From positions 1 to 46,375 of the IMG/VR virus record IMGVR_UViG_3300030328_001894: a DNA stretch of 46,375 bases; one strand, given 5' to 3'. The notes below the pieces were generated by a model that ran no database searches, was not told where the DNA came from, and saw only the letters and a list, made by a program, of their open reading frames with translations. Positions within the stretch are counted from its first letter, which is position 1; each line of letters starts with the position of its first letter. Positions 1,736 to 34,386 of the stretch are shown here, in pieces. This stretch comes from a virus. A program made the translations under genes and the position numbers.

Positions 1736-3928
1736 CTATTTTTTAGATTGCTTCTTCTTAGGGCGAGAAGAAGGTGAATCTGTTTTTGAAGTAGCATCAG
1801 CTACTCCTTTTTTTACTGACCCTAAAGCGTCATCTAGGCGTTTCTCAAAAAGAGTGCCAGACATTTTTGCCCGATTTGTAGTTGCCTTTAAATCAGACTT
1901 CGTTTTTTCGATTTCGGCTTTCATCTTGGCGTGATATACTTCACGCTCTCTCGTCTGCAAGTCTCCTTGCATTTGTTCGATAGTTTCAGTTGCTTGCTGT
2001 ATTTGCGATTGCAACTGTTGTATCAAATCTGTTCTTTGTAGTACGCCTTCCATATCGAATACTTCTGTTTTCTTCAATACTTCTTGTTTATCAATAATGC
2101 CTTTTTCATAAGCATCCATATACATTTCAAGCTGTGCCATTCTATTAGTTGGCATAGTTGAGCCTGTAACGACTACAACATCATATTTACCTATAGTAAT
2201 ATCATTTAAAATTTTTATTGCACCAGTTTTATCGTCGAATAATCTCTTATTAACAGTATATTCATTTATACTATTATTTGGCTGTATAAGTCTAACGACC
2301 TTCTGGGTAGTATACAACTGCTGCATTATTGGAATAGCTATTTGGCCAAGTCTATTAAGACCAGCTTCAATATCAGCTAGTTTGCTTTTCATTTTACGCT
2401 GACCAAACTCATCTAAACTAACTGTTGCTTTATATGTATGAGGAGCTACAGCAGAATTACCCATTGTCATTTCGTAAAGGCCTAGCTGATGATCAATATC
2501 GTTTTTAGCAGTATTTTCATTAGAGTATAATTCGTTCGGCAAGGGAGTTGGCTGAACTGGTGTTGGCTGCCCCTGATCAAAATCAACCTCGATGGCTACT
2601 CCAGGCTGGGCCCATTTCTGCTCAAACTCCCTCATATCTACCGAACCTGATGGTATTAAAATCTTTGTATTGGTACTAGTAGTAGCGTGGGCGATAATAA
2701 GACTTCTTGTTTTATTGATGTATTCCTGCATACCCTTTACCATGCGAACATCACTCATTGGATAGGGGGTTCGGGTATGTTGGTTCATAAAGAACACTAT
2801 TGGATACTTATCAACTGGTAAAACACGAGAATATAAATGCTTATCGCCCATAATCACGCATTGTTTAATTCTTTTAGTTGGAACTACAACTACATCAACT
2901 TGCCCCATTTCAACTAATTCTTTAAATGTAATTTGCTGTACTTCAGGCTCTTTTGGCATATCTAATCTGCCTTGAGCTGTTGCTTCTTGAACTTTTTCTT
3001 GATATAGAGCTTGTAGTTGCTGTATAGCTCTTTCTGCTTGCTCTTTTTCAGCAATTACTTGACCTTGAATAATCCAAGCTGGCTGCTGTAAATATTCAGT
3101 GTATTCTTCTTCGTTAAGTAAATCTTCATCTCCAGTCATTGTTTCGAATATTCTATAATGATCAACCATTATTGGATAATATCTTTCATATCCTCTTATA
3201 TACTCATTACTTTTACCAAAATTAGCTATTGTCTGAGTATCAGTTGTTTCAGGCCAAGTTGTTTCACCATCATCTTCACGAGAAGTGCTAGGCCTATCTG
3301 TTAAATGAGTTTCAGTTGAAGCATTTTTAATTGCTTTTTCATACATAGGATACAAAGAAGCTGCTTGTTCTTTTGTATAGAGTCTTGATATGATAACATT
3401 TTCTGCATCATCAGCAAAAGGATGTCTTGAATTGGGGTCAATATAAACATCAAGGGGGTCTACATCGTGAATACAGACCTCTCCTTTACCCATATCCATC
3501 ATTGGGTCTATGTAAACAAGTGCACACCCGAGGCCAGTTACATAATAATCATCAACAATTCTTCTCATTACAGCATTACCTTCAGAGATTTGCCATATAT
3601 ATTCAAGTAAGCCATTCATAGCTTGGGCTACTTGATTGTCACTATCTTCTCTAGGGGATACTCTAAATTGAGGTTTATTTGCAGTTATAAGTGCTTTTGC
3701 TGCTTCTACTGCTGGATGAATACGGTTTACTACTAAAGCAGCTTGACCTCTTTCTTCCAATATTCTTTTTTGGTCAGAAGTCCATTGCTTGCCTAATCTA
3801 AATTCTTTATCTTCTTGAGCATGGTTTGCCCAAGTTTCACGCTTTTTTGAATAGGTTTTAAATATTTGTTGAGTCTCATCAACAAGTTTTTTGCCAGTTT
3901 TCTGATTTTTTGAAGAGTAAGCCATCAT
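1736..3928 (-). CDS. Portal protein, P22-like family
   Basis: The 730-residue product matches the P22-type portal in length and layout. The N-terminus is helical and basic, followed by a segment with ILEERGQAALVVNRIHPAV and ITANKPQFRVSPRED. The core includes DVDPLDVYIDPNSRHPFAD, and the C-terminal third (about 600-730) is a long Gln/Glu/Lys-rich coiled coil, as in portal barrel or crown extensions. The dodecameric portal is the DNA gate at the capsid vertex and docks the terminase. It lies directly downstream of the large terminase gene. The start is a double ATG (ATGATG) with only a weak ribosome site, so translation may be coupled to the terminase gene ending 13 nt upstream. Confidence 0.88.
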   Translation of the reverse strand: MMAYSSKNQKTGKKLVDETQQIFKTYSKKRETWANHAQEDKEFRLGKQWTSDQKRILEERGQAALVVNRIHPAVEAAKALITANKPQFRVSPREDSDNQVAQAMNGLLEYIWQISEGNAVMRRIVDDYYVTGLGCALVYIDPMMDMGKGEVCIHDVDPLDVYIDPNSRHPFADDAENVIISRLYTKEQAASLYPMYEKAIKNASTETHLTDRPSTSREDDGETTWPETTDTQTIANFGKSNEYIRGYERYYPIMVDHYRIFETMTGDEDLLNEEEYTEYLQQPAWIIQGQVIAEKEQAERAIQQLQALYQEKVQEATAQGRLDMPKEPEVQQITFKELVEMGQVDVVVVPTKRIKQCVIMGDKHLYSRVLPVDKYPIVFFMNQHTRTPYPMSDVRMVKGMQEYINKTRSLIIAHATTSTNTKILIPSGSVDMREFEQKWAQPGVAIEVDFDQGQPTPVQPTPLPNELYSNENTAKNDIDHQLGLYEMTMGNSAVAPHTYKATVSLDEFGQRKMKSKLADIEAGLNRLGQIAIPIMQQLYTTQKVVRLIQPNNSINEYTVNKRLFDDKTGAIKILNDITIGKYDVVVVTGSTMPTNRMAQLEMYMDAYEKGIIDKQEVLKKTEVFDMEGVLQRTDLIQQLQSQIQQATETIEQMQGDLQTREREVYHAKMKAEIEKTKSDLKATTNRAKMSGTLFEKRLDDALGSVKKGVADATSKTDSPSSRPKKKQSKK

Positions 3929-3941
3929 TAAAAATTAATAC

Positions 3942-5489
3942 TTACATAGTTAACCAGTCAAGTATTTTATTGCTTTTTATTTCAAGTACTTCTTTAGGGT
4001 CAAATTGGTCTTTTTTTATCCTACATGGCCTTGATCCTTCAAGCGCAGTCCATATAGCATCCATAATATCATCATTCTTACCTCTTGGATAAGATAGGAA
4101 CTCTTGCTGTGCTGTAAGGTCTTGAGTCCTAAAGAAGAACTCCCCTTTAGCAAAGGGAGGTACTAATGATAACAATCTTTCACTCTTTCTGTTCCGTGGT
4201 TTTACACCTTTTTCTAGTCCAGGTATATATAAGTTCTTTTCAAGCATTAAAGCTCTTGTAGAACTACGAAGAGCTTCTTGATATGCCACTGTTTCTATTT
4301 TCATCCTTTTAGGACGGAATTTTTCATATATCTCAATAATTTTTTTAGGTTGTAACGCTGGATCAAGCCTTTCTCTAAAAATGTCGACAATGTACTTATT
4401 ATTATCAGCATCGATAGCAATGGTAGCAATAACAAAATAGTCAGCACGGGCACTAAGACTAGATGCAGGGTCAACCCCAGTATAGAGCTCGACTGGTATA
4501 ATTCTCTTTTCATCCGCAATACTCCTAGACAAACAAGGTTGGTTATTAATTCTTTCAAAATCATAATGATGTAACTTTATATAATCTGGTTTAAATGGGG
4601 CATCATCAGGAGACTGAGCAATGTTCATATACTCCTGATAGAAACCGTTTATATTTCCAACACTTTCAAATTCACTTTTTATTTGAAGTATTCTATCTTT
4701 TGGAAAGCGTTCTGGCCAAATACTTTTTTCTTCATCATTCCATATGCTGTACCATAAAGTCTGCCAAGCGGGGCTATCCTTAGCCCAATATAAAAAACAA
4801 TCTTCAGAAATAACAGTACCAATCATAATTATCCTACCATCATCAGATAAGGATGGAATAACAGCTTCTGTCATCCATTTGCGATTTTTTGTCCTACCTT
4901 CTGGAGTAAAAGCATTTAACTCAGATTCAAAGTCATCAACAATAATAACATTAGGTCTTGTATCGCCTTCAATAAAACCACGAACTCTCTGTCCTGTACC
5001 AACTGCAATAATACGAGTACCATTTTTTAAGACTACATCTGTACCCGTCCATCTTTTAGCAGTAGTCGAACTAAAATCTCCATAAATAGCTCTAAAGTTC
5101 TCACTATGTTCTAAATGGTATTTAATACGAGATAAAAAGTTTATTGACTGAGCCTGAGACTCAGATACAATAACCATAAATAAATCATCATTAGGCCCTT
5201 TGTGTGCTATTTTATATAAAGGAAATATAAGAGAACATACTGTACTTTTTGCTGTACCACGAGGGGCTGCTATAAGAACACGCTTTGTATCATCGTCTTT
5301 TAATGATTTATAGATATCTCTATGAAAAGGTGGAGTCTCTTTTGCCAAGGCTGTTGGAAAGCAATACTTACCAAACCACCCCATATCTTTTCTAAAGCCA
5401 GCTTTTTCTTTTTCTAAAGCATAAGTTGCTTCATAATCATTTTCTTTTTGAATACTTTGGAGCTGTTCTTTGGCTAGAAGATTTTCCAT
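3942..5489 (-). CDS. terL: Terminase large subunit
   Basis: The 515-residue DNA-packaging motor has both expected domains. The N-terminal ATPase carries a Walker A-like APRGTAKST (residues 75-83) and a Walker B VIIVDDFES with Asp185/Asp186. The C-terminal RNase H-like nuclease begins with YTGVDPASS (Asp340 a likely metal ligand) and ends with KNDDIMDAIW, matching the conserved late Asp motif. It would cut concatemers and pump DNA through the portal. Its ATG overlaps the stop of the upstream gene as TAATG, implying translational coupling to the putative small subunit. Confidence 0.93.
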   Translation of the reverse strand: MENLLAKEQLQSIQKENDYEATYALEKEKAGFRKDMGWFGKYCFPTALAKETPPFHRDIYKSLKDDDTKRVLIAAPRGTAKSTVCSLIFPLYKIAHKGPNDDLFMVIVSESQAQSINFLSRIKYHLEHSENFRAIYGDFSSTTAKRWTGTDVVLKNGTRIIAVGTGQRVRGFIEGDTRPNVIIVDDFESELNAFTPEGRTKNRKWMTEAVIPSLSDDGRIIMIGTVISEDCFLYWAKDSPAWQTLWYSIWNDEEKSIWPERFPKDRILQIKSEFESVGNINGFYQEYMNIAQSPDDAPFKPDYIKLHHYDFERINNQPCLSRSIADEKRIIPVELYTGVDPASSLSARADYFVIATIAIDADNNKYIVDIFRERLDPALQPKKIIEIYEKFRPKRMKIETVAYQEALRSSTRALMLEKNLYIPGLEKGVKPRNRKSERLLSLVPPFAKGEFFFRTQDLTAQQEFLSYPRGKNDDIMDAIWTALEGSRPCRIKKDQFDPKEVLEIKSNKILDWLTM

Positions 5490-11622: not shown

Positions 11623-11850
11623 ATGGCAGCAAATACAGCACCAACTGTATCCGTCATATCATACCACAATGGTAGCCAAGTCAGAGACATGCAGGGTGAA
11701 AAGCCCAGCGACCTTGCTCAAGCAATGGATTTGTCTTTAGACGGAGTAGCCATTTACGTAGACGATGTTGAAGCGAAAGCTTCTACGCCTTTACGTCAAG
11801 GACAATTTGTTTCTTTTCAGAAGAACAAAGTGTCTTCAGGTGTAAGCTAA
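11623..11850 (+). CDS. Ubiquitin-like (ThiS/MoaD-type beta-grasp) modifier
   Basis: The 75-residue protein follows the ThiS/MoaD pattern. Beta strands VSVISYHNG and GVAIYVDD are joined by a helix (SDLAQAMDL), then TPLRQGQFVSFQ matches the typical L-x-x-G-D/Q-x-V-x-F strand that precedes the Gly-Gly tail of ThiS and MoaD. The C-terminus is S71-S72-G73-V74-S75, with the SSG where ThiS has GGG, plus two extra residues that a JAMM peptidase could remove to expose Gly73. It has a very strong ribosome site (GGAGGAG) and more G+C-rich codons than neighbours, suggesting high protein levels. An E2-like protein, a JAB peptidase and an E1-like enzyme follow, supporting the call. Confidence 0.72.
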   Translation: MAANTAPTVSVISYHNGSQVRDMQGEKPSDLAQAMDLSLDGVAIYVDDVEAKASTPLRQGQFVSFQKNKVSSGVS

Positions 11851-11877
11851 TTACGTCTGCGTGAAAAAGTCGTAAGT

Positions 11878-11926
11878 CCTGTAGCTATCGTAACAGAATT
11901 TCTGTTAACATTAATATAGCTACAGG
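11878..11926 (+). other. Structured intergenic element 5 with inner 7-bp/3-nt hairpin
   Basis: A perfect 11-bp outer stem (CCTGTAGCTAT at 11878-11888 with 11916-11926) surrounds a perfect inner hairpin TAACAGA-ATT-TCTGTTA (11891-11907). It sits in the 122-nt spacer between the Ubl and E2-like genes. It might attenuate transcription, giving more modifier than enzyme, or serve as a protein-binding palindrome. Confidence 0.6.
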
Positions 11927-11972
11927 CATTCTTTAACTAAATCAATTAAATCAAATAATAACAGGAGTTATA

Positions 11973-13748
11973 ATGCAATATTTTAAAAGTATTATGCCGC
12001 CAAAATTAGGAGATATAGTAGACTGTAAGAATATTCCTATTAATACAGAAGCTGTAGCCTATGAAAATAGAATTAAAAAGATATTTATAAAAATCTTTGG
12101 TGGAGGCGTAATTGAAGAAGAAGCATATTGGAAATTATTATGGAACATGGTAAATGATCCATATAAATTATACGGTATCGTAGCAATAGATGGTTTTGCA
12201 AACGATATGAGTGCAAATCATGATTATGGATTGTATCTAAATTTTGGAAGACCAAGATTAAGAGCTAGAAAATATCATAATTTAAAAAGAATATATTGTT
12301 ATCTGCAAAAATCAGGTGACATACATTTCTTTAATTCAAGAGTAGAAACAGGAGACGAACCCCATTTTATGTTAAATATTGATGGTGTTTACAATGCCTG
12401 GCCAGCAGATCACCCACATATATCATCTGGTGTACCTTGTTTAGGTGCATATCAAAATGACTTAGGTAAGTGGAAACATGAAAGCAATCCTATAATGTTT
12501 TTAAAGACAATTAATCAGTTTTTAAATACCTGGAATGCAAGATCAGCATATCATAATATTAATCATACAGAAACAATATATACTCTCACAAAAGATAAAG
12601 TTAAACCTAGGATTTATAGTAGAGGTACTTATTTAATGTTTAATTCAAGTACTAGAGGATATGTTGATAATTATTATCGCTATGTAAGAAAACATATATT
12701 TGATATAAAATCAGAAGACAGACAATCTGAATTATCAGTATTAAATGAAACTAAAAAGATACTACTTAGAGTAAAAGAAAGCTTATTAGAAGACAATAGT
12801 AGTTTAAAAGGTTCAAAAAATATTGATTACATAAATAACTTTATTGATGTTACGGGAGTAGCTATTACTAATCCTACTGGAGATATTAACTGGCAGATGA
12901 TAAATCATGGATATCAGAGAAGAAATATAATTAATTCTGATAGATATATTAATATTGAAAAAGGACATTCACGCTTTCCCCAGGTACCAGCATCAAAAAG
13001 TACATTTGGTATATTAAATACTCATAAACGCTATCTTATTCTAGAAAGACTATTAACTTCTTTAGCTAGAGTAATAAGAATGTGTTTAAGAGCATCGGTA
13101 AATGATCAACAATTACCAGAAATAATGAAAAAGTACGAAAGTATTACTATACAAAAATATGTAGAAAATATAGTACCAATTATTATTGAAAAGAATCAAG
13201 TTTATGCAGATTTAACTGTAAAACATTCTTTAAACTCTCGTTTAAGCGATACTTCTAACCTAACAGGTGAAGAACTTAAAAAAACAAGAGCTTCTTTAGT
13301 AAGAAAGTACAAACGTGCAAATACTAAATTGTTTAAAGAAATATGGACAAGTGTAAAAGACGAATGTGATAATCTAAAAATAGATGATATGCTAGACGAA
13401 GAAACTAAAAAAGCTTTTCATTGCGAACTAGATGAAGCAGACGAAGGTTATGATGTTCAATATTTATATAATAAAGGACATTATTATGACTTTATGCAAA
13501 TAAGTACAGCTGAAGAAAAAGAGCAGCATGAAAAAAATGTAGAAATAAATAAATGGCCTACTAATTTCGAAGAGTTAATAAAACTTTACGAAGATAGTAA
13601 AAAAGAAGCACATTTAATATTTTTAGAAGCTGAAGAAATATCATTAAATTATAAAAAAAGAAAGGTTGTAGAGACTTATGGATACAACATTAATAGTACC
13701 AAACAAGATAGCACTCAAGTACCGTTATCTTTTGACACGGTTTCCTAG
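11973..13748 (+). CDS. E2/UBC-like conjugating domain in a 591-aa protein
   Basis: The start has AGGAG upstream. Residues about 85-200 look like a ubiquitin-conjugating fold. A beta meander (IYCYLQKSGDIHFF, HFMLNIDGVYNAW) leads to HPHISSGVPCLG, where His147-Pro148-His149 and Cys156 match the H-P-H and catalytic Cys of prokaryotic E2-like proteins. A helix follows with FLKTINQFLNTWN and ARSAYHN. Residues 200-591 are highly charged, helical, rich in Lys, Asn and Glu, and unfamiliar; they may bind the target. The last 71 nt overlap the downstream JAB gene, so the C-terminal 20 or so residues are unlikely to be functionally constrained. E2 identity is inferred from motif and neighbours. Confidence 0.68.
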   Translation: MQYFKSIMPPKLGDIVDCKNIPINTEAVAYENRIKKIFIKIFGGGVIEEEAYWKLLWNMVNDPYKLYGIVAIDGFANDMSANHDYGLYLNFGRPRLRARKYHNLKRIYCYLQKSGDIHFFNSRVETGDEPHFMLNIDGVYNAWPADHPHISSGVPCLGAYQNDLGKWKHESNPIMFLKTINQFLNTWNARSAYHNINHTETIYTLTKDKVKPRIYSRGTYLMFNSSTRGYVDNYYRYVRKHIFDIKSEDRQSELSVLNETKKILLRVKESLLEDNSSLKGSKNIDYINNFIDVTGVAITNPTGDINWQMINHGYQRRNIINSDRYINIEKGHSRFPQVPASKSTFGILNTHKRYLILERLLTSLARVIRMCLRASVNDQQLPEIMKKYESITIQKYVENIVPIIIEKNQVYADLTVKHSLNSRLSDTSNLTGEELKKTRASLVRKYKRANTKLFKEIWTSVKDECDNLKIDDMLDEETKKAFHCELDEADEGYDVQYLYNKGHYYDFMQISTAEEKEQHEKNVEINKWPTNFEELIKLYEDSKKEAHLIFLEAEEISLNYKKRKVVETYGYNINSTKQDSTQVPLSFDTVS

Positions 13749-14493
13749 TACAGAATGGTCTGGCCCAGCATGGTACAGAATCAAAACAGATAAAGAAGGA
13801 TTTCCAGAAGAGTTTAAATTAGTACATTTCCATCCACTTGACTTAGGTCATGGAACATCAACAGAATGGGAAGCTAAAGACTTAGCCAAGATACTAAGAA
13901 CTACTTATGAAAAATACCCTTCGTTAAAGAAATGCTATATGGGGCTTATTCATAGTCATCATACAATGGGAGCATTTTTATCTGGAACTGATCAAGCAAC
14001 AGTACAAGAAATGGCACCAAAGCAAGGTTTCTATGGAAGCCTAGTTGTTGCAAGTGGTGGCAAAGCTACTGAAGCATTTGGTTTTGGTTATAAAGATCAG
14101 TATGGTGCGTCACATTGTTTAGAAATCGATAATAAAAATATCGAAATCAAAGTACCTGAATACAAAGTTGAAGACGATTGGAAAGAACAAGCTGATATTA
14201 TCGAAAAGAATAAACCAGTTGTTAAATCTAAACAAATGACAATAGGAGGTGGATTATCTTATGTCCCTTATAAAGAGAAAAGAAAGAAAGAGATATTAGA
14301 CAAGCAACCTCAAAACAAGCAAAGACAAATTAATAAACTTCTAGACCTTAATATAGAAGGTAAACTAGACGATGTACAATTAGAAGTTGAGCTTGAAAAG
14401 TTAGGTTTAGGTGCAGATGAAGTTTTCTATGTAATGGATGAAGTAGATAATAATTATGGTTATGGATACGGAGGATATTATGGCGGATACTAG
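13678..14493 (+). CDS. JAB/JAMM metallopeptidase (deubiquitinase-like)
   Basis: The 271-residue protein has a complete JAMM signature. Glu26 lies in PSTEWSGPAWY; the motif H-x-H-x7-S-x2-D is exact in IHSHHTMGAFLSGTDQATV, giving His92, His94, Ser102 and Asp105. These are the zinc and catalytic residues of the family, which cleaves at ubiquitin-like C-terminal Gly. The domain covers residues about 1-150; a Lys-rich linker and a Gly/Tyr tail (YGYGYGGYYGG) follow. The start overlaps the E2-like gene by 71 nt with only weak ribosome-site support; no later in-frame ATG would keep Glu26. It likely matures the modifier and may also remove it from targets. Confidence 0.88.
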   Translation: MDTTLIVPNKIALKYRYLLTRFPSTEWSGPAWYRIKTDKEGFPEEFKLVHFHPLDLGHGTSTEWEAKDLAKILRTTYEKYPSLKKCYMGLIHSHHTMGAFLSGTDQATVQEMAPKQGFYGSLVVASGGKATEAFGFGYKDQYGASHCLEIDNKNIEIKVPEYKVEDDWKEQADIIEKNKPVVKSKQMTIGGGLSYVPYKEKRKKEILDKQPQNKQRQINKLLDLNIEGKLDDVQLEVELEKLGLGADEVFYVMDEVDNNYGYGYGGYYGGY

Positions 14494-15148
14494 ATTTCTT
14501 AGAAACAAAGACCTTATACCTCAAGGTAAGCTTGACAAAATAGGTATAGTAGGATTAGGAGGTATCGGCTCACAGCTGGTACCTCTCTTGTCTATTATGG
14601 GTTTTAAGAAGATAATTGGATGGGATTTTGACACACTTGAAGAACATAACTTAAGCACAACTATGTACCCACAGAATGCTATGGGGACAAGTAAAGCTGA
14701 AGTAGCTGAAAACATATCAAAACTATATGCTGTTAAACCAGGTAATATGAAATTTTATAATGAATATTATAAAGAAGAAAGTCCAACACTTCCTAAAATG
14801 ATTGTATGTGCTGATAATATGGAAGTTAGACTATTAGCATATAACAAATGGTTAGAACAAGATAATAGAAAAATGTTTCTAGACTTGCGTATGGGTGCTA
14901 TGGCTATGGAAATTGTTACAGTAACTAAAGACGATGATAATTATATGGAAACCTGGTTGCCTACTCATGAGATAAGTGAAGAGCCTTGCACAATGAAGCA
15001 TACTATCTTTACAGCCTCTATTGTAGGAGGTTTTGGAGTAGATCAAGTGTTTAATGTTGTTGCAGGTAAACCTTATTATCAGTATATTTGGATTGGCTTA
15101 ATGCCACTTCAAATGCGAACTGAAAATCTAATTATAAATAAAGGATAG
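14480..15148 (+). CDS. ThiF/MoeB/E1-like adenylating enzyme
   Basis: I choose the ATG at 14480 because GGAGG lies 5 nt upstream; a longer in-frame ATG at 14456 has no such site. The 222-residue protein has the nucleotide-binding loop GLGGIGS (25-31), an acidic strand GWDFDTLEEHNLS (Asp49, Asp51, Asn57) as in the E1 ATP-binding site, and an ADN motif (Asp112). A Cys-containing segment EEPCTMKHTIFTAS (Cys170) then leads into the last helix pair. The Arg that usually follows the N-L of E1 enzymes is replaced by Thr. Only the adenylation domain is present, as in ThiF. It would adenylate the Ubl and may form a thioester through Cys170. The start overlaps the JAB gene by 14 nt. Confidence 0.85.
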   Translation: MADTRFLRNKDLIPQGKLDKIGIVGLGGIGSQLVPLLSIMGFKKIIGWDFDTLEEHNLSTTMYPQNAMGTSKAEVAENISKLYAVKPGNMKFYNEYYKEESPTLPKMIVCADNMEVRLLAYNKWLEQDNRKMFLDLRMGAMAMEIVTVTKDDDNYMETWLPTHEISEEPCTMKHTIFTASIVGGFGVDQVFNVVAGKPYYQYIWIGLMPLQMRTENLIINKG

Positions 15149-15150
15149 TT

Positions 15151-16014
15151 ATGGACATTCAAGTTAGAAAAGTGTCTACTGACTGGTCTAAATTGCCTAA
15201 TGGGCTGACTTGGTATTTTATCGGTCAGCCCAAAACAGGTAAAACTACACAGGCTAGTAAGTGGAGCGATAAAGGTTCTGAAGGTGTATTATTAATTGAT
15301 ACAGATTTAGGATCAGATTTTGTTAATGAAGCAAATACTGTTACTGTTACTTCTTTAAACACGCCAACAAGACCTCAGATGGTTGAAAACAAGCAAGTTG
15401 TTAAAAATGGTAAGCCAGTAATAGAAGCAGTGCCTAATAACGAAAGAGGTTATCATCATAGAACTGGTGATAACATAGGTGAGCCAATGGAAGTATACTC
15501 TATGATAGAAGTGTACTTTTGGTTAAAAGAAAACCTTAAATCCCTTCCATACGATACAATCGTTATCGATACTATAGACCACATAAACAGATGGATAGAA
15601 GCTGAAGTCTGTGATGAACGTGGACAAGCCGCAATGGGTGAAGGTGCCTCATGGGGTGCTGACTGGGCCCAAGCAAGGAAGAAAAACCTTGATATCGTTA
15701 AAAAATTTCAAGCGTTGTGCAAACAATTAGGTAGAAACCTAGTGTTAATATCACACGCAAAAACAACTGTCATAACAGACGGTAAAAGTCAGTTAGGGCC
15801 TGAGCTCCCACGAGGGTTGTCTTATGCTTTAACTGCATCAGCAGACGTGATAGGGTACGCTACAGCTAGCAAAGAAGATGGAAAATTCTATATTTCTTTT
15901 AAAGCTTATGACGAAAGAACTGTAGGCAGCAGGCTAAAGCCACTTGCCCAGAAAGTTCTTGACTTTGATTACAGTAGCGTAATGAATGAAATAATAAAAT
16001 ACAAAGAAGAATAG
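15151..16014 (+). CDS. Sak4-like RecA-fold ATPase
   Basis: The 287-residue protein has the Walker A GQPKTGKTT (25-33), Lys31 being the nucleotide-binding residue, and a hydrophobic strand VLLIDTDLG (Walker B-like). YDTIVIDTIDHIN and LVLISHAKTT follow. This order is that of the AAA_24/Sak4 family of phage recombinases that promote annealing of ssDNA and work with an SSB. A putative ssDNA-binding protein follows 9 nt later, as is usual for Sak4. Only 2 nt separate it from the E1-like gene, so the conjugation module and replication genes share a transcript. Confidence 0.85.
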   Translation: MDIQVRKVSTDWSKLPNGLTWYFIGQPKTGKTTQASKWSDKGSEGVLLIDTDLGSDFVNEANTVTVTSLNTPTRPQMVENKQVVKNGKPVIEAVPNNERGYHHRTGDNIGEPMEVYSMIEVYFWLKENLKSLPYDTIVIDTIDHINRWIEAEVCDERGQAAMGEGASWGADWAQARKKNLDIVKKFQALCKQLGRNLVLISHAKTTVITDGKSQLGPELPRGLSYALTASADVIGYATASKEDGKFYISFKAYDERTVGSRLKPLAQKVLDFDYSSVMNEIIKYKEE

Positions 16015-16023
16015 GAGATGCCT

Positions 16024-16659
16024 ATGCCTTTCAGAGGTTCGTTTGAACAAAGTTCAGACAAGCCAGTTGGAGCTAACTTTTTGGGTTTTCAAGAAGTAGC
16101 ACTAACTGATGTAGTAGATAAATCAGCAGACTATCCAAACATGGATATGTTTATAGAAGTATATTTTAGAAACGGAAATTCACAATATCCCTGGAAATAT
16201 AGCCTTTTAGGTACATTTGACAGAGAAAATGATGATACCGTGTCTGGAACAAGTAGTTTGTTGAAAAGGATCTTGTATTTTACTGATGCTATTGGATGGA
16301 TGGGCGGAGTTAACACCAAAGGAGAATGGGTAAATGAAAGTAATGAACCTGTAAAAGATATTGCAGGATTTTTAAATACTGAGTTTGCTGCTAAAAACTA
16401 TGGCGTTGACGATTCTGAAGCTGATCATAAGTATTATATTTTTACTTATAAAAAGTGGAATGAAAAAGCTGGAAAAGCATACACAACTGTATGTCCTAAG
16501 ATTGTAAAGAACACTGACCATGGTCGCAAAGACCTTGAAAGTTATGTTCAATACATGAAAGCCAATAAATTCATCGTAGAACATGATGACACTCAAGGAA
16601 TTGTTAGTAATGGAGATATGTCTAGTACCGCTACTAGCCCTTCTCTTAACAAGTTCTAA
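16024..16659 (+). CDS. Putative ssDNA-binding protein
   Basis: I use the ATG at 16024 because AGGAG ends at 16017, leaving a 6-nt spacer; the ATG at 16018 would touch the ribosome site. The 211-residue product is rich in aromatic residues and beta strands (MFIEVYFRNGNSQYPWKY and later YYIFTYKKWN) with a polar C-terminal tail (NGDMSSTATSPSLNKF). Placement between a Sak4-like ATPase and a primase-helicase is the usual SSB position in phages. No conserved motif proves it, and the acidic tail common to SSBs is absent. Confidence 0.6.
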   Translation: MPFRGSFEQSSDKPVGANFLGFQEVALTDVVDKSADYPNMDMFIEVYFRNGNSQYPWKYSLLGTFDRENDDTVSGTSSLLKRILYFTDAIGWMGGVNTKGEWVNESNEPVKDIAGFLNTEFAAKNYGVDDSEADHKYYIFTYKKWNEKAGKAYTTVCPKIVKNTDHGRKDLESYVQYMKANKFIVEHDDTQGIVSNGDMSSTATSPSLNKF

Positions 16660-18513
16660 GTGGAACTTTATCACGAAGTAGCAATAGGGGGCCCTCACAA
16701 CAGAGGGCTCCTTATTCCTCAAGAACAAGTAATTGATGTTATATTAGAACACGGAGACAAGTACGCTGTCTACAAAAGTTTATATCTATATGATCAAGAA
16801 GGAAAAGAGTATCATAAGCTTAGAAAAACATTTAAAGATTTTTTAGGTAAAAGATACATAGAAAATGTACTTATTGACATAGATAGAGGCGATAATACAG
16901 ATGATTATACACTAAACAAAACAAAAAGTGTATTGTTTGAATTAGAAGAATTAGGTGTACAAAAACGCTCATACAATGTCTATTTTAGCGGAACTGGATA
17001 TCACATAATAATAAGTGGTGAAGTCTTTAATTTTGAAAATGGAAGTAAAGATTTACCTTTTATTGTAAAAGAAACTATGAATAATTTATTCAGTGATATA
17101 GACTTAGCAGTTTATAATAGAACATCAATATATAGATGTACCAATACTTTAAATCCCAAATCTAATCTATATAAAATTCCATTAGAACATGATCAAATAT
17201 CTTCTTTTAAATCTGAAGATATATTAGAGTACGCAAAAAAACAAAGAATTATTTCTACTGACCCTATATGGGGAGATGGAGAATTAGAAGATAATGTTAT
17301 AAAAGAAGTACCTAAGATAAGAGTTATGGAATCCAATGTGGAACCTAGGAATATAGTACCCTGTGTTCAAAAGATGTATAAACTTGGCCCTGAAGAAGGT
17401 TCAAGAAACAATACTTTGATGCGAATAGCATCCCATTTCTTTAGACATGGTATACCTAGTGAAGCAGCAAAAGCTTCATTAATACATTGGAATAGTGGTC
17501 AACTTAGAGATGATGTGATTATAAAAAAAGTAGAAGACACCTATCGTGGTGGATATAAGTATGGATGCAAAGACGTTTTAATGGCTAAGCATTGTCAAAC
17601 TAACTGTATTCACTACAAAAGAAAAGACTATTTAATTGACGTAAAGAATAGTGAGGACTTGCAGCAAGAGTTAGCAGAAAGATTAGAAACAGATTTTTCT
17701 GGAAGAACTATAGACTTAGCTAAGTCTCTTGGAATACACGATAAAGACGCAACTATATATCCAGGAGAATTAGTTACTATATTTGGTTCAACAGGTGCCA
17801 ATAAAACAGCACTAGCACAAAATATAGTATTAGGCTATAATGCTGAAAATGATCAGATAATAAAAGAAAAACAAGTACCCACACTCTTCTTATCGTTAGA
17901 GCTGTCTGGATTTGTTATGCACAGAAGAAACTTGCAAATAGTTTCAGGTGCTAGCAAAGATACTGTAATGAATAATTATAAAACTCTATATGAACATCAT
18001 AAAGAAGAGTTAAGTCATATAATTATGCAATCAGTTAGCCCTACAATACCACAAATACAAGATAAGATAAAACAATTACAACCTAAATGCGTTGTTATTG
18101 ATTACATAGACCTTGTAGATGTTCCTTTTAATAAAAGAGGAGAATATGAAAAGCTTAATTACATAAGTCATTCTCTATCTAATATTGCAGTTAATGAAGA
18201 CATTATTATTGTACAAATATCACAAGTATCTAGAGATTATTCACGTAATCAAATAATGGATTTATATGCAGCTAAAGGCAGTGGAGCAATAGAAAATGCT
18301 TCACGAAAAGTTGTAGGTATAACAGGTTCTTCTGAAAATACAGAAAAGAAAGTATCTTTATTTAAAAATAGTGATGGTGATCTATTCGATGTTACATTAG
18401 AATGGACTCCATCATTCAGATTAAAAAAGAAACTTTATCCAACAGTAGATAGTAAGGTATTAAATCAGAAATTCACAATGGTGGAGGATAAATGGCAAGC
18501 ACAAAAGAGCTAG
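16660..18513 (+). CDS. AEP-type primase fused to DnaB-like helicase
   Basis: The 617-residue replication protein begins at a GTG placed right after the upstream stop (TAAGTG), implying coupled translation. Residues 60-230 look like an archaeo-eukaryotic primase: VLIDIDRGD (Asp73, Asp75), YFSGTGYHI (Ser110, His115) and RCTNTLNPKSNLYKIPL. A Cys cluster CKDVLMAKHCQTNC precedes the helicase. Walker A is GSTGANKT (376-383, Lys382) with Asn in place of the usual last Gly. VVIDYIDLVD (Asp481) is Walker B and VQISQVSRDY follows. It would prime and unwind at the fork. No DNA polymerase is seen in this window, so the phage may use the host enzyme or carry one elsewhere. Confidence 0.85.
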   Translation: MELYHEVAIGGPHNRGLLIPQEQVIDVILEHGDKYAVYKSLYLYDQEGKEYHKLRKTFKDFLGKRYIENVLIDIDRGDNTDDYTLNKTKSVLFELEELGVQKRSYNVYFSGTGYHIIISGEVFNFENGSKDLPFIVKETMNNLFSDIDLAVYNRTSIYRCTNTLNPKSNLYKIPLEHDQISSFKSEDILEYAKKQRIISTDPIWGDGELEDNVIKEVPKIRVMESNVEPRNIVPCVQKMYKLGPEEGSRNNTLMRIASHFFRHGIPSEAAKASLIHWNSGQLRDDVIIKKVEDTYRGGYKYGCKDVLMAKHCQTNCIHYKRKDYLIDVKNSEDLQQELAERLETDFSGRTIDLAKSLGIHDKDATIYPGELVTIFGSTGANKTALAQNIVLGYNAENDQIIKEKQVPTLFLSLELSGFVMHRRNLQIVSGASKDTVMNNYKTLYEHHKEELSHIIMQSVSPTIPQIQDKIKQLQPKCVVIDYIDLVDVPFNKRGEYEKLNYISHSLSNIAVNEDIIIVQISQVSRDYSRNQIMDLYAAKGSGAIENASRKVVGITGSSENTEKKVSLFKNSDGDLFDVTLEWTPSFRLKKKLYPTVDSKVLNQKFTMVEDKWQAQKS

Positions 18514-20512: not shown

Positions 20513-20554
20513 AGGGAGGATAGTTTATCTTTTCTATTCTCCCTCATCTTTTTT
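20513..20554 (+). terminator. Intrinsic terminator between convergent operons
   Basis: An 11-bp stem (AGGGAGGATAG at 20513-20523 with 20534-20544, one G-U) and a 10-nt loop are followed by six T (20549-20554), a good intrinsic terminator for the plus-strand transcript. The right arm contains the stop codon of the giant minus-strand gene, so the two operons end on each other. Confidence 0.65.
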
Positions 20555-23500
20555 ACGTAACCTTATAATACCACCAGGCCCGAGTTTTTCTGTTTGAGGG
20601 TCTTTTTGATATACCTTAGACATTTGCATATAAGGTATACCAGTAACTTTTTCAATAGTTCTAGCTGGATTTTCTATTATACCACCTTCCCCAGCAACAT
20701 CCCTTGCAATCCTACCAAAGGGAAACATAGTCCAAATATAATAATTAGCCATTTTATCCCAGTCATTCTCTACAAGACCTTTAAATGTTGCAGGAGCCAA
20801 TCTTAGCACAGGAGGTGTTATCATTTGAAGCGGAGCAACTTGAGAAGGCCAAGTGCCAAAGAAAGCCCTATCACGCTCTTTTTCATCTCCAAATAGCCAA
20901 TCAGCTGTATCCTGGAACCAATTTAGAGGAGCAGGGAGAGCAGCTTCGAATAAAGAATAAGCAAAGACAGAAGAAAGAGCCAACATGAAAGCATCTGCCA
21001 AAACTAATCTTTTAAATCTTTCAAATTCTTGAGTTCCTTCTTTATATCCTCTTAGCTTAGCTTGCTCTATAATATCTTTTCTAAACCTTACAGAGTTCCA
21101 AGCCCACAACTGGAATCTAGTCATAACTTTACCTAAAGAAGTAGCTGCAAACATAGGTCTAAATGGAGCAGAGTAAAGGAATTGAGTAGCCTGAACCCCT
21201 TTTCTCGCATAAGCAATCAATGCTGGATCATCCCATCTTTGTATTGCCCCTTCTAAATTACTTCTAGCCTGAAGATAATGAGCAATAAAAGAGTCTACAC
21301 GAAGAGTTCTTTCAGCTCTTCTCATAAACCAAGCTGCCTTATTAAATATACTTGTATTTATACCATGCTTTCTAACTATAGACATTAAATCAGCATCAGC
21401 TAAATTTGGGTCTTTATTTATTTTATTCACAGCATCTTTAAAAAAGTTTTTCCATTTCGCAGAAGCAAACTTTGGATTCTTGCCAAATTCACCTATCATA
21501 AATTCTTCTACAATACCCAAATCATTAACCCATTTAGTCCAATCAGAGCGACGTTTAAAAGCTGGATTAACATTAGCTTGTAAAAAAGACAAGTTCCTGG
21601 CATTTCTATAATTAGCAAAACCTGTATTAATAAGAGTATTAGCAGTACCGCCATAAAGGTTAGCTACCATGCTTTTAGGGTGAGCGAGTAGAGATGCAAG
21701 TTCAAATTTAGCTTCTATATTACTCCATTTAGCAATATCTTGATAGTCTACGCCACGCAATTCTTTTGGAAGCATTCTATCTTCTTTTTTAACGCCAAGC
21801 TTTTCATATATCTTATCCATTTTTTTCTTAACATTCATATCAGACCACCAAGCGTAAAGAGTGCCTTTTACTTTCATATCTGGATTATTTAGCACTCTTT
21901 TAGGTATATGTGAAGGATTTCCCATTCCTTGCTGAATATATAAATTCCAAAAGTCTGTCCAGTTATTCATCCATTTTCTAGCTTCAGGATCAGTGCCAGC
22001 ACCTTTATGTTTAATAGCCCATTCTTTCCATTTATATAAATCATGTCTCATTTTTATTTGAGCAGCATGTTGATATTGAGCATCAATAACCTGTTTTAAA
22101 TGCATTTTCATTATATCAGGACTAACATCATAACCACCTTGATGAGATGTTCTGCTATGCATAGAGCCAATAACTCTATTATTAGTAAGCCATTGAAAAG
22201 CTTCACCTTGTTTCTTTTTCTTTTTACCTAATTTTCTGACAGCAGCATCAACATTTGCACCTAGATCAGCCAAATCAGCTGTAGGCATATAGTCACCACT
22301 AGATTTGTGCATCCTTATAAGCGTTCTAATGATCATGTTTTCTTTTTGCTGATGACTATATTTAGGATTATCATTTATTTCTTGGATATCTTTTTTAGCA
22401 CGTTCTTTAGCTAGCTTTGGATTACTTGCCATTATATGGGGATACCATTCATTAAATGGTAAATGACTTGTTCTATAAATCTGAATCTTTTTTATAACTT
22501 CAGTTAATTCTTTATTACCCATTAGTTTTGCTGTTACAGAAGCTTGTTCTCTGTATAATTCTCTTTGACCATCTATACCTATAGCATCTAAATCTAAATT
22601 TTCACCCCTAGCCATAGCCATGTCCATTTCTTTTACAAATTTATCAACCATAGCTTTAGAATCACGCTTACCATCTTTAGTTCTTAAAGTGCGATACATT
22701 ATATCAAAACCAGTTTGCACTGGAAGTCTGCCTTCAGTTTTTCTAGGATTTCCTTCTAAATCTTTTGGATTTCCAGCGGTCATTGAATAAGATAATTCAG
22801 CCCATTTCGTATTTAACTTATCTAAAGCACGAATTACTTGAGCTCCTGTCATCTTTTTTATTACAGATTCACCTTTTTTGTTAAGTGTAGTAACATTAAA
22901 TACCTTATTTTGTGTATTAGCCCAATCAATTTCTTTAGCTAAACTATTATATTCTTCAATATATTCTTTAAGTTTTGGATCGTATTCTTTATCTTTAGAC
23001 ATTTTACGTTTTGCCATAAGCATTTCACGTTCTCTAACAGCGAATTTATAAAGAGCATCTCCTTCTTTTAAGGCTAAGTAAGGGCCATAATCATTGTCAA
23101 ATTTTTCAGCTATTTCTCTGTATTTAGTTGTAGCTTGTTCAGAAGTATAATGCATAGTTTTTTGATGTCTATCAATTTGATTTGTAGGCTTAAATACTTC
23201 ACCGATAACAGTTCCATGTTTTTTAGTTTGGAACTGGCGTATCTGTTCAAATCGTTCAAGGTCATATCTCATTGTATCTTGACCAATAGCTTTAGGGAAC
23301 ATATAGTAATGAGTAGGGCTAATTTTTACAAACTTATCTTTTACTGGTCTCATTATACGCTGCCACCAAGTTCCATCTCTATATTTATTTAAATTATTAA
23401 CAAGGAATTGCAAATCTTCTTTATTAGACATATTTAAATCTTTACCAAATAAACCTCTAGCGTATTTATTTAAATCTACAGCAGTCCAATTTGGAATATA

Positions 23501-26500
23501 ATTTTCTAATAAATCTCTTAATTGATAATATAAGCCACGAACATCTTTAGGCAGCTGATCAATTCTTTTTTTCTTTCCAGAAAATTGGAAAGGGGCAAGT
23601 TCATTTAGGTACTTTCTAGATTGCTTGTCTAAAAGAGGGGTCTCTAAGAAATCTCCAGTTGTAGTAGTACCTGCTGAATCAATTATTTGCTGAGGAGTTT
23701 CTAATGTTTTAACAGCTTCCATAGCTTTTTCGACAAGATTGACTCTAGACCCTTCTATTGTAGGGGTAAATAAATTGTCGTAATTCTTTAACCATCTAGC
23801 TACAGCCCTATCGCTTATTTCTGGAGAAGCAAACCCAAGTTTAGAAAGCCCAGTTTTCATAGTTGAATACCATACCGTACTTAACATAGCATCTTCAAAA
23901 AAGTCTATTTCTTTTTGGTTTTTTAATTCACTCTTAACGCTTTTAATTTGAGCGTCTACTTCAAATTGACTAAATATTTTATCGCTTACTTCTTTTAAAA
24001 CTTCTGGAGAAAGCTCTTGAGCGTATTCTTGTTTCATTTTTTGATGAAGATAGCTTGATTTTTTTATATCATTAACAGCTTTATATATAGCTCTAGCTCT
24101 TTCTTTAGGTATTTTAGCTGCAGATATAGCAAGAGCATTGACACTTCCTATGTCGCCATAATTTTGAATAAGAAAATCATTTCCTTTTTTTACTATGTCA
24201 TTTAGTGTTCTTGTTCTCCAGTTTTTATCAACTTTATTAGCTTCATATCTAGGGTCTTTTATTCTAACTTGCTTACCACTCTTATCGTAAATAAGATTTC
24301 CTCTGTCATCTTTTTTCGGAATAGTTTTATACACTCTAAAAGGGTCTTTTGTTAATAAAAATTCTAATGGATCAACTCCTCTAGGGGCTTTTACATCTAA
24401 TATATCAGGATTCCAGGTTTCAGAGTTTGTTTCTCTTGTCATACCATTATATGTTTGCAAGTCTTTATTGTATATCCATTCAATATATTTAAAGTTTTTG
24501 ACTGGAACTCCGTGTTCTCTTTTTAATATATCATGAAGCCATTTATTTTTTATAGAGTTTTCATTATATAAAGTATAAATTTCTTTTATTTTTATAGGGT
24601 CAAGTCTGCTTATTACATTGTCACTCCAATCAATTTTTTCAAGATCAGTAGCGATTTTTGTAAGGAATGTGTTTCTATTCTCGTTTTCAATTCTAGTGCC
24701 AAACTCCTCAATAGAAGAAAGTTTTTCCTGGATCTCCCAAAACTCCCATTTTCTGTCAGCTTTCCAATTTCTACTATATACACCTTGATTTATATTTTGT
24801 GCAGTAGTATAAGGGCCCATTTTCTTTTCTTGGGCAGTTATTCTTTTATCCTTAGGAGTCTTTCCATTTTCATTAGTTAATTTATAGCTAAACAAAGCTT
24901 TTGATTGATGATTAAATAAGTTATTATTTTTAGAGATAAGTAATCCATTGTAGTCCATAGGGTCTGATGCAAACCCAGTTGCAGCTTTTGACATTAAATT
25001 AAATTTGTTGACATTGGCATTGTCTGTTTTAGCTGTTATTTCTAAATCAAACCATGTTTCTTTACCATTAGAATCAACTTCTTTTCTAGCTCTTTTTACA
25101 ATATAAGTTTTGTTTGGCAAAGAAGCTATTGCAGCGTGAGCGGACTTTAAATAAGAAGTTTGAGTTATAGCACTGCCAAGTTCACGTCTTCCTTCATAAG
25201 CTTTTTCAGAGGCAACTTGTCTTGTCTGAGGAGAAAATGTTAATAGAGGATTCTTCGAAACTCTTTCATTAGGGGCTTCAGTAAAAACAGACTCATATTC
25301 TTTTTTAGCATCAGCTTCTGTTATATTCCCCTTTGAATCAACTCTTTCAAATTCTGTTTCATTCCATCTGTACATATCCTTCCATTCTTTTTTAAAGCCA
25401 GTACCTTTGCCATCTGCTCCCATTCCACCAAAGAAAATAAAAGATGTATCTCCATCTAAATCAGCACCACCTAAAGCTCTTACTTTTCTACCATGCATTA
25501 ATATTCCAGAGCCATCTATTTCTGTAAAGCCTGCAAATTTTAAAACCCTGCCACCTGACATTGCATCCATAGGAACTCTTACCGCTAAAGCTTCAAATAA
25601 ATCTTCATATATAGCTTTTTTAGAATCACCTTCTTTTAAATTATTATAATCTTTCCAATGATTTTCAAGCTTAGCATTTTTTAAACCTAACCCAGTTCCA
25701 TCAATAATTTTTTCTTTCCATAAATTATCTAAAAAGAAAACATCATCACGAGATTCAAGTATTTTTGTTTTAGGGTCAATTTCCATAGCTTTATCGTAAG
25801 TCCTTAATCGTCCTTTACCACTATTACCAGCTATAGGTCTTGTTATTGCGTCAGCTACAAAGTTTTGCATTACTCTAGCTCTATGATCACTACTCCATTT
25901 AAACAAATGCCCAGCCATGCTATCTTTTGATAGTTCTTGTATCCGTTTTGGGACAGAAGAATAGTCATTCATATCTAGTAATCTTTGAGTACTTTCGTAA
26001 GCCGTTTCTTCTCCTTCAGTTCTTATTCTATCAACAACTTCTATATCTCTACTTTGCAATTTATTATAAAGCCTATTAGCAAATATTTCATTTCCTGGCG
26101 TTTTAGCAGCTACTAAAAGCTCATTTAAGCCTACGTTATCTATATTTTCAAGAATTTCATCTATATTTTTTTCATATTTTTTAGGGTTTCTAGCTAGATC
26201 ATTGACCATATCATTGTATTTTTTTTCACCTTCTATCCTTCTCCATATGGTGTTGTAATACATATCGTCCATAATTTCATTAACTTTTTTCTCATAAGCC
26301 TCTTTAGTTTTAAGCTCTTCAGGTAAGTTTTCAGGATTAAAGCTTCCGTAAGGAGTTTGATTAGTAAACATCTGCTTTACAATTTGTTTGTTTTTAATCA
26401 TATCTTTGCCAGTTTTTTCTGACAATATTACTTTAAAATCTTCAACTGGAATCTCATATACTTTAGCATTTACTATATCTATTTCGCCATTTTTAGTATT

Positions 26501-29500
26501 TTTTATTTCTCCTGAGACTCTTTCACCTAATTGCTTAGCTGCAGATTCATACATAATTAAATGTATACCCTTTTTATTTAGCCAAGCTTCTGTCTTTGCA
26601 TGGCCACCATGTATCATATACTTGCCTAATACAGCCCCTAATTGGGGGTCAGGAGACACGATAAATGATTTATTGGCATTACCTTCGGTTTCAAGCCCTT
26701 GCCCCTTATTTAAGCCATATATGAAGTCTTTTCGTCCTATTGGGCCACCATCTGTACCTTCAGCCCAATCACTAGCAGGACTTCTTGTTGAAAGTTGAGC
26801 ATCAGGCTTTCCATTGTCTTTTACGAATACAACTTTAACTTTTAACACTCCATCTTTTTCTACAAGATCACTCTTACCTATACCTTTAAAGCTTTCAATA
26901 GCATCTTTTACAGCTTTAGCGTCAGCAGAATATCCATTTGTATTCCATATTTGAGCACGTTTATTGTATCCTTTGCCAGTTACAACATATTTATCCCCGT
27001 CTAAAACAGTTCTAAAGTTTGTTAACTCTGCTTCTTTACCTTTAAATCCGTTCATTCTAAGTGTGTAATGTATATTAGATATAAAGGCTTTATTAAAAAG
27101 AGCCCTAGCTTCTTTTGCTCCTAAAGAATCTCCGTAATTGTCTACAAAATCCTTCATATCTTCTCTTAAGCTTTTCTTTTCAGCATTACTTAACTTAAGT
27201 TTAGCTATGTCTCGCAATATCTGCATATCGCTCTTCATTGCTTTAGGGTGAATTTTAGCAAAATACATTCTCTCAGCATCACCTCTACCACCTTGATAGT
27301 AAAGATTTTCTTTTGCTAATTCTTTCATTATCCTGCCAACTTCACGATAATATTTTGCTTCTACTACTCTATTAATTTCTTCAGTAGGGTAATCTTTTTC
27401 AAGATGTTTATAAAAGTTTTTTAAATATTCTTTATATCTAGGGAGAGAGTATTCTTTAAAGTTGTTGTTTTTTGTTTTTACAACAATATGATCTAAAACT
27501 GCATAACTATATTCAGGGACTTTTTCCCCTGGAAACGATTCTTTAAAATCTGTTTCATAAACTTTATCAATTCTTTTCTTTTCTTGAGCTAAGAATTTTC
27601 TATTACCAGCTTCATTTACAGCAGAACCTTTTTCGTCAAGCGTTAACATTGCAACCCTTTTAGCTGTACCTTTTTCAGTAACAACACTTATCATTTGAAC
27701 AGGTGAATCTTTTAATCTTCTTACTCCAGTGGTTAGCCAAAACTCTTTACGACCAGGTTTATTCATATCAAACTTTGGATAATTAGCTTCTATATAATCT
27801 ATCATTATCTCGCCAGGATTTGTATTCTCAAGCTTACCCTGCTTTATTGCTTCAATCCATGAGACACTAATATCATCCATTACTTTTTTAGCTTCTTCTG
27901 GAGACTTATTTTCAAGCTCTTTTCTCATATATTTAGGATTAGAAGTAAAAGTATAGGCAGTAGCAGACATTCTATCTGGTATATTTTGTGGATCTACATC
28001 ATCTAATGTTCTGTTAGAATCTATAATTTCTGGATTTTTAGGAGGCTGAACTTCTTTTTTCGCAGACTCTACAAGTGCTGCTGTTTTTTCTTGTTTAAAT
28101 AATCCTTTTATTTCAGCTTCACCTTTTGGTGTAAGGCTCCTAGCTCCTATTCCAGCAACAACTCCTTCTAATTTTGGTGCTACAGACTCAACCCAACCAC
28201 TACCATAAGGCTGATTGTTCCATTTAAACCATTTATTTGTTGTCATATCAAAAACATGAACTGGTTTACCCATATCTATAGCCATTTGAGTAGCCCAAGC
28301 TGTCCCACCTTTTACTTGCCCTTTTTCAATCCTAGATACAGCAATTACTTTATCTGAATCTTTTACTTGATAATAGTTTCTTCTTAATAAATTATTTGTT
28401 TTTGCACTTGATGTAGGAAACTTTCTTTTTAAAGTTTCATTAGCTTTTTTTACAAATTTATCAGCTTTTTGAAGTTGGGGGTCGGTTAAAATATTTCTAT
28501 TTTTACTTGATACACCATGACCTTTAAAAGAATGAGCTATGACTTTATCACCTCTTTTTATTCCTTCTGTTTCAAAAACAGTATCAGCTCCATCAGCTGC
28601 CCCAGAATGAATAACAACTGGTTTAGCTAATCCAGTAAGAGTTGTTTTTATATTCTTTATATTGTATAAAGCTATTTCATTTATCCTATTTTCATAATCA
28701 CCTTTAGATTCGTTTTTTCTTTTAGGATTAATTATATGAGCTTTCTCATGTTCTATTACAAAACGCTCAAACTCTTCATAAGTTTTAAACTGGTCTTTTT
28801 CAAGAGGCTTTACCCCTTCTACTTTTGGTTTAGTCCACGCTTTATCATCAAACTTTTTCTTTAATAACTCTCTATCAATAGTAATCTTTTTAGTTTTTCT
28901 ATTAACATAGGCAGCAACTATATCTTTAACGCCTTCTCTAATCTTATCAGATTTTTTATATTCTATAGTATATTCAGGTTCTGCTTCAGGCTCTTTGACT
29001 TTTGGCTTTGGAGCAGACTCTTCAATTAACTTTATCAACCTAACTGCATGGCTATCGGAAGCATCAGGCTTATAGTACTTTAAAGTTTTACCTACTAGTA
29101 TGCCAGATTTTATATCTTTTAATATTTCATCTCTTTTTTTAGATAAGTATCCTTTATCACCAGTACCTCTTAACCAATTATCATATTTCTCTATAGCTTC
29201 CTTCACATTCTCGACTCTTGTATATCCTAATTTTTTATAATAATCTGGATTTTTATCATAAACTTTACCTACAACAAATGGATTTCCGTACTTAGAATTT
29301 CTCATTATACTAATACCACTTGTCCCAGACAATACTGTTTTAGGTGCCTCTTCAACTTTCTTTTCTGGTTCCTTCTCCGCTTTCTTCTTAACCATTATAG
29401 GTTCACCTTCTTGAGTAAACTCTATTTCACCACTTTTAATTTTAGCTATTTCAGCTTCTATTTCTTTTTCTGATAAAGCTCTGCCCTCTTTAGACAAGCT

Positions 29501-34144: not shown

Positions 34145-34386
34145 TATAAAGCTTCGTAATCCGTTTTAAGTTGCTCGTAATCAGCTTTCTCTTTTGTCAA
34201 GCTTGTTATTTGTGCATCTATATCTGACACAATATCAGTAACCATAGAAGGATTTATCATTTCTACAACATCATCTAACTCTTCACCAGTGCCAATATCA
34301 TAACTTTTTTTTGTAATTTTAATAACTCCATTGTCATTTGCAATAGATACTTTATTAGCTTCTTTTAGTTTTTTATAATTTTTCAT
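34144..34386 (-). CDS. Small coiled-coil protein (80 aa)
   Basis: Begins MKNYKKLKEANKVSIANDNG; the C-terminal half (VSDIDAQITSLTKEKADYEQ and beyond) is a coiled coil, so it probably forms a trimer or hexamer. It overlaps the fibre gene by 14 nt and joins the next gene through an overlapping stop and start. A fibre connector or chaperone is likely; no family is recognised. Confidence 0.6.
   Translation of the reverse strand: MKNYKKLKEANKVSIANDNGVIKITKKSYDIGTGEELDDVVEMINPSMVTDIVSDIDAQITSLTKEKADYEQLKTDYEAL

Follow-up and report, generated by a model that had tools for sequence, protein, structure and literature searches.

Bacteria are known to use ubiquitin-like conjugation as an anti-phage weapon. 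In the Bil system, the genes bilABCD encode, in this order, a ubiquitin-like modifier (Ubl), an E2, a JAB peptidase and an E1, and the JAB peptidase BilC processes the C-terminus of the Ubl. BilA has two Ubl domains, BilB carries a CEHH motif with the His after the Cys, and BilD consists of an inactive adenylation domain, an active one and a Cys domain (PMC11354881). In CBASS, Cap2 and Cap3 conjugate and deconjugate a cyclase, and E2 and E1 are found in one protein (PMC11153139). Iyer et al. (2006) place phage Ubl and JAB proteins in tail clusters (TAPI and TAPK of lambda and T1) and E1/E2 sets in bacterial operons and mobile elements (PMC1779556). Here we analyzed the IMG/VR virus record IMGVR_UViG_3300030328_001894 (46,375 bases, hereafter the window), which comes from a marine phage and in which four co-oriented plus-strand open reading frames (ORFs) at 11623-15148 encode a Ubl, an E2-like protein, a JAB protein and an E1, in that order. 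We read this block as a phage-borne ubiquitin-like conjugation system in which JAB would both mature the modifier and remove it from its targets, with a probability of about 0.78.

An earlier note on this DNA had described a ThiS/MoaD-type modifier, an E2-like domain with an HPH...Cys motif, a JAMM peptidase with all catalytic residues and a ThiF-like E1, linked beside genes for Sak4, an SSB-like protein and a primase-helicase. The ORFs were located as described. The Ubl (75 aa) is encoded at 11623..11850, the E2-like protein (591 aa) at 11973..13748, the JAB/JAMM isopeptidase (271 aa) at 13678..14493 and the E1-like activating enzyme, with a single adenylation domain (230 aa), at 14456..15148, all on the plus strand. 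The E2-like and JAB ORFs share 71 nt and the JAB and E1 ORFs share 38 nt, while only 2 nt separate E1 from Sak4.

Judged by sequence, the identity of the E1 is secure. Pfam ThiF gave one match to the window protein (2.5e-12, residues 28-205), and the family profile found UBA5 as the closest solved structure (1.3e-13), followed by MccB, SUMO-E1, MoeB and ThiF, which bears out a ThiF-like E1. The E1/ThiF signature (GxGGxGS, Asp, Lys, catalytic Asp and Cys) is present, and the GxGGIxS loop, D57, D59, K80, D120-N-M, R125 and C178 were invariant across the marine, crAss and Flavobacterium phage copies. The JAB assignment is likewise secure. The JAMM metal site, Glu plus HxH(7)SxxD, is complete in the window protein as E26, H92, H94, S102 and D105, and these residues were invariant in 22 sequences including those of crAss and Flavobacterium phages, so the peptidase has its full catalytic set. 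The Pfam Prok-JAB score of the window copy was 1.4e-3, under the cut-off, and that of a homologue was 7.6e-6, over it.

Group I introns (RF00028) were found inside the JAB gene of two relatives, Flavobacterium phage Fpv1 (L098, about 3331-4352, E 1.9e-9, under the gathering score) and a crAss-like contig binned with a Spirochaetia metagenome-assembled genome (MAG) (L096, 8052-8297 minus, 2e-18). Both sit at the JAMM H-S-H codons, where annotation splits the JAB gene in two, and the JAB allele of FpV4 has no intron. Insertion of a group I intron is the usual mark of a conserved site in a phage gene, and we counted these two cases in favor of a conserved JAB site and of conjugation.

The 75-residue Ubl passed the test of a beta-grasp fold, in keeping with a ThiS/MoaD-type modifier. 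Its AlphaFold2 model was a single domain of beta-grasp topology with a predicted local distance difference test score (pLDDT) of 83.7, and its Foldseek neighbors were ThiS-like proteins, Mth1743, TtuB, SUMO, MoaD and an archaeal ubiquitin (CsUb). The family profile was nearest to ThiS/TGS/MoaD/SAMP2 and matched ThiS 2cu3 at 1.2e-4 in hmmsearch. The window protein ends with K-V-S-S-G73 and then V-S, and it thus has both the fold and the C-terminal Gly of a beta-grasp modifier. Among 25 relatives, only G17, S72 and G73 were invariant, and the Ser-Gly pair was followed by 0-10 residues; the Ubl of loci L075, L078 and L094 ended precisely on the Gly. In crAss-like and Flavobacterium phages, Ser-Gly was followed by an extra C-terminal region of more than 100 residues, which would require removal by cutting. 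An unvarying Ser-Gly followed by a dispensable tail, in a protein encoded next to a JAMM peptidase, fits a processed ubiquitin-like precursor, and cleavage is predicted after G73.

The E2-like protein contains an N-terminal region (residues 1 to about 200) with H147-P-H149...C156-x-G158 and a fast-evolving helical region from about 200 to 591. Just five residues (H147, P148, H149, C156 and G158) were invariant in 31 diverged sequences, with nothing invariant past G158, and all 51 full-length copies carried HPH...CxG. The crAss homologues read HSH...C.G, followed by a helix and then by S/G-P-Y. AlphaFold2 modeled the 591-aa protein with a pLDDT of 85 and a predicted template modeling score of 0.79, and the order of its elements (helix, strands, HPH loop, Cys, helix) appears compatible with a ubiquitin-conjugating (UBC) domain. 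Because the assignment depends on these five invariant residues, the motif in 51 of 51 copies, the helix after the Cys and the gene position, we use the label E2-like and not E2. In one relative (L008, 107-1636), the C-terminus of the E2-like protein was fused in one ORF with an unrelated bacterial-looking protein, which is probably an assembly chimera.

A scan of IMG/VR with the E1 alignment gave 390 relatives; 80 loci were retained, and the block was scored in them by gene position and homology. The order Ubl-E2-JAB-E1 was held wherever the contig extended far enough, and the ORF overlaps were conserved as well as the order; the Ubl was not recognised in L084 and L090. Where primase-helicase loci had enough upstream DNA, JAB and E1 lay upstream in 80 of 81, and the sole exception (L157) had other genes there. 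This conservation is far beyond chance. The block, whose absence from relatives had been set beforehand as evidence against the earlier proposal, is genuine, conserved and widely distributed among phages.

In GenBank phages, E1 relatives were found in 75 records and JAB relatives in 74; these belonged for the most part to Flavobacterium phages (29) and to crAss-like phages, either of Bacteroides or uncultured. Crass-like Steigviridae and Flavobacterium phages have the same four-gene order, which in crAss001 is gp79 (Ubl), gp78 (E2-like), gp77 (metalloprotease) and gp76 (ThiF). The blocks of crAss001 and of Flavobacterium phage Fpv resemble that of the window in this order, in JAB and E1 homology, in the Ser-Gly of the Ubl and in the HxH...CxG of the E2-like protein. 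They differ in the C-terminal extension of the Ubl and in a shorter E2-like protein with HSH and a longer loop ahead of the Cys, and the annotation of their genes goes no further than hypothetical, metalloprotease and ThiF. The crAss-like block has a primase upstream and uracil-DNA glycosylase (UDG) and nucleases downstream, and that of the Flavobacterium phages is neighbored by toprim and UDG. PHROG matches link the crAss and Flavobacterium families through the E2-like protein (3.1e-7) and the Ubl (4.6e-4), while the marine family is tied to both by JAB (2.8e-27 against crAss JAB in hhalign), E1, gene order and motif. A pattern-based scan covering 84,980 genomes of bacteria and archaea gave one relative, on the crAss-like contig binned with the Spirochaetia MAG. 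The module therefore appears to be phage-borne, within the limit of the single JAB pattern used in that scan.

Median identity to the window was 82% for an HNH endonuclease, 81% for Sak4, 77% for the primase-helicase and 74% for E1, compared to 56% for the SSB-like protein, 54% for the Ubl and 49% for JAB. It was 41% for residues 1-200 of the E2-like protein and 24% for residues 201-591, where these were detectable at all. The ratio of nonsynonymous to synonymous substitution rates (dN/dS) was computed on ten close pairs. The values for E1 and the JAB core were mostly 0.03-0.17, the exceptions being the E1 of L044/L047 (0.48) and the pair L085/L087, which has very few silent changes; Sak4, measured in two pairs, gave 0.08 and 0.14. 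E1 and JAB are under purifying selection. For the E2-like protein, the values were mostly 0.26-0.42 in residues 1-200 and 0.34-0.76 from residue 201 onward. The helical part is not decaying, since its ORF stays open and it is confidently folded. Its rapid change suggests a variable partner or target, or alternatively relaxed constraint.

The block was then compared with the described systems. Bil has the same Ubl-E2-JAB-E1 order. On the other hand, the phage Ubl is a single 75-aa beta-grasp domain compared to the two-Ubl BilA, the phage H-x-H lies ahead of the Cys and nothing is invariant after G158 compared to CEHH in BilB, and the phage-carried E1 has 230 aa and one adenylation domain compared to the inactive, active and Cys domains of BilD. 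The BilD model matched the window E1 only at 0.0027 (residues 28-86). Genomes related to the Spirochaetia MAG, searched for reference copies of Prok-E2_B and BilD, yielded no true member. Membership in Bil was rejected, as the order was shared and the architectures of BilA, BilB and BilD were not. The PRTRC plasmid cassette, which matches operon type 6d of Iyer et al. (2006) (PMC1779556), is also borne by mobile elements, with the order Ubl-F-E2-JAB-E1 (L111) and C-x-G at the E2 cysteine. However, F is missing as a separate gene in the window, the PRTRC E2 has no HPH, and the proteins of L111 and L114 match Prok_Ub, Prok-E2_D and DUF2016 while the window proteins match none of them. Alignment of the two phage E2-like families with the PRTRC E2 by hhalign gave E values of 0.28 and 0.26, and ParB had no match among the block and the neighbors scanned. 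PRTRC membership was rejected on these protein families and on ParB, in spite of the similar order.

The type II CBASS resembles the block in its E1/E2/JAB chemistry, and the phage E1 matched Cap2 structures (9e-6) and the PADLOC E1-E2 models (4.7e-6). However, the phage E1 and E2-like proteins are separate ORFs and a dedicated Ubl is present. No CD-NTase (cyclase) match was found among the neighbors scanned, and CBASS membership, which implies a fused E2-E1 beside a CD-NTase, was rejected. A Ubl together with JAB also recalls the tail genes of lambda and T1, but that set (Ubl and JAB/NlpC) stands among tail genes without E1/E2, while the present one lies in a replication block, opposite in strand to the genes for portal, terminase and tail fibres. 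A tail-assembly origin (TAPI/TAPK) was thus rejected on place, strand and the presence of E1, and the distinction from the lambda-like arrangement drawn in the earlier note was upheld.

From what is known of these protein families, we infer the following steps, a UBC nature of the E2-like protein and a protein target. JAB would cut the Ubl precursor after the conserved Ser-Gly (G73). E1 would adenylate G73 with ATP and take the Ubl onto C178, from which the Ubl would move to C156 of the E2-like protein. This protein, whose long helical C-terminal region may serve as a built-in target recogniser, would join the Ubl to an amine of the target protein, and JAB could detach it again. The block lies within a string of replication genes, and expression together with them is therefore expected; promoter-like sites in the window were not more numerous than in shuffled sequence.

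Conjugation is likely, given the established identities of E1 and JAB, the Ubl fold, the conserved catalytic residues, the gene order and the neighbors. Several observations weigh against it. The E2-like protein gave no UBC match in Pfam, in a PDB-sequence profile, in full-length Foldseek or in hhalign against Prok-E2_D. Foldseek of the full-length 591-aa model against PDB and BFVD returned helix-dominated matches and was uninformative. The gene set, the linkage and the Ubl fold proposed in the earlier note held, as did the HPH...Cys motif, while a UBC fold around Cys156 was not confirmed by the fold and profile searches. The system may act, as that note suggested, by modifying host proteins, protecting the replisome or countering a defence. 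Moreover, the N-L-x-R-Q motif of the E1 is missing its Arg (the window reads N-L-S-T-T), and the crAss-like copy of L096 has A-G instead of S-G in its Ubl and F-S-H instead of H-S-H in its E2-like protein (both ORFs within 3697-5433, reverse-complement numbering). Marine-crAss alignments by hhalign were weak for the E2-like protein (E 0.0066, probability 6%) and the Ubl (0.021, 2%); the shallow alignments gave no significant link, and deeper or trimmed ones did slightly better. The marine-crAss homology of these two proteins is weakly indicated, by motif, order and neighbors. Furthermore, no E3 was identified.

The missing UBC match, which recurred in every search made (Foldseek, Pfam and PDB profile), would also be expected if the large protein were not an E2 but a Cys/His metal-binding or hydrolase protein merely placed between Ubl and JAB. 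Such a protein is improbable, as the H-x-H ahead of an invariant Cys and then a helix is the arrangement of E2s, its position between Ubl and JAB is the same in three phage groups, and its modeled element order fits UBC. The invariant H-P-H...C-x-G also bears on a sulfur-carrier pathway, in which a ThiS/MoaD-type Ubl would be activated by E1 for thiolation of a tRNA base, DNA or a cofactor, and JAB would only mature it. Bacterial and archaeal Ubl-E1 pairs do perform such thiolation, and the Ubl profile is nearest to ThiS/TGS/MoaD/SAMP2. However, this pathway has no need for an E2-like protein whose sole invariant residues form that motif, no rhodanese, SirA-like or thiouridylase match was found among the neighbors scanned, and we consider it highly improbable.

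The module could also counter a Ubl defence (Bil or CBASS Cap2/Cap3), either through competition for its conjugates or by stripping them off. The bilABCD-like order, the fast-evolving E2-like protein and a JAB able to remove foreign tags agree with this, but to act purely as a decoy or stripper, the module would not require a complete Ubl-E1-E2 set with E1 under strong purifying selection. Co-variation with a defence system was not observed at the analyzed loci, and this role is quite unlikely. As a sub-case of conjugation, the Ubl might be attached to the phage's own Sak4, SSB-like protein and primase-helicase to regulate replication, as the position of the block among replication genes in marine, crAss-like and Flavobacterium phages would suggest. 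Yet the helical part of the E2-like protein is the fastest-evolving region (24% identity, dN/dS about 0.3-0.8) while Sak4 and the primase-helicase are conserved (81 and 77%, dN/dS about 0.1), and the divergence of the SSB-like protein, sought among the relatives as a hint of the target, does not track that of the E2-like protein. This sub-case is somewhat unlikely. If the block does conjugate, a variable host or defence protein is the target at slightly less than even odds, a phage replication or recombination protein is a possible but weaker candidate, and any other target is unlikely.

Downstream of the block, the plus strand encodes the conserved neighbors, which lie outside the conjugation set. 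These are the Sak4-like recombinase (15151..16014; phrog_124, 8e-27), the SSB-like protein (16018..16659) and the primase-DnaB-type helicase (16660..18513; phrog_19, 3.9e-28; phrog_16345, 1.1e-19; Pfam DnaB_C, 7e-16); the SSB-like protein is named by position and from the earlier note and had no significant Pfam or PHROG match. Pfam and PHROG profile searches also placed the HNH endonuclease in this plus-strand block, while the portal and terminase genes are on the minus strand. Divergence is far greater in the SSB-like gene than in its neighbors and varies independently of theirs, which suggests separate exchange. In addition, a 3,323-aa protein at 20534-30505 contains a DprA-like segment (phrog_768, 7.2e-14, residues 622-764) and is probably multi-domain. 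Three tail-fibre-like proteins (34373-36661, 42487-44685 and 44685-45950) match the same fibre families, mostly via their C-terminal parts, and are perhaps alternative receptor-binding proteins.

A full E1-E2-Ubl set in phage replication blocks was not found in the consulted part of Iyer et al. (2006) (PMC1779556) or in the other literature searched, of which subscription papers and preprints were largely outside the scope, and a prior mention is possible. Within that scope, the crAss001 and Flavobacterium phage genes had likewise not been presented as a ubiquitin-like system. An apparently whole set is carried here by phages themselves, both by a common marine group and by crAss-like phages, which rank among the most abundant human gut viruses. 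We tentatively propose that the block may represent a further type of prokaryotic Ubl conjugation proper to phages (marine, Flavobacterium and crAss-like gut phages), which would act early in infection and tag host or defence proteins via the fast-evolving recognition domain of its E2-like protein. Some carriers (crAss001, DAC15 and FpV4) are in culture with known hosts, which makes the target, the timing and the need for the system directly testable, and several crAss genes annotated as hypothetical become a testable pathway.

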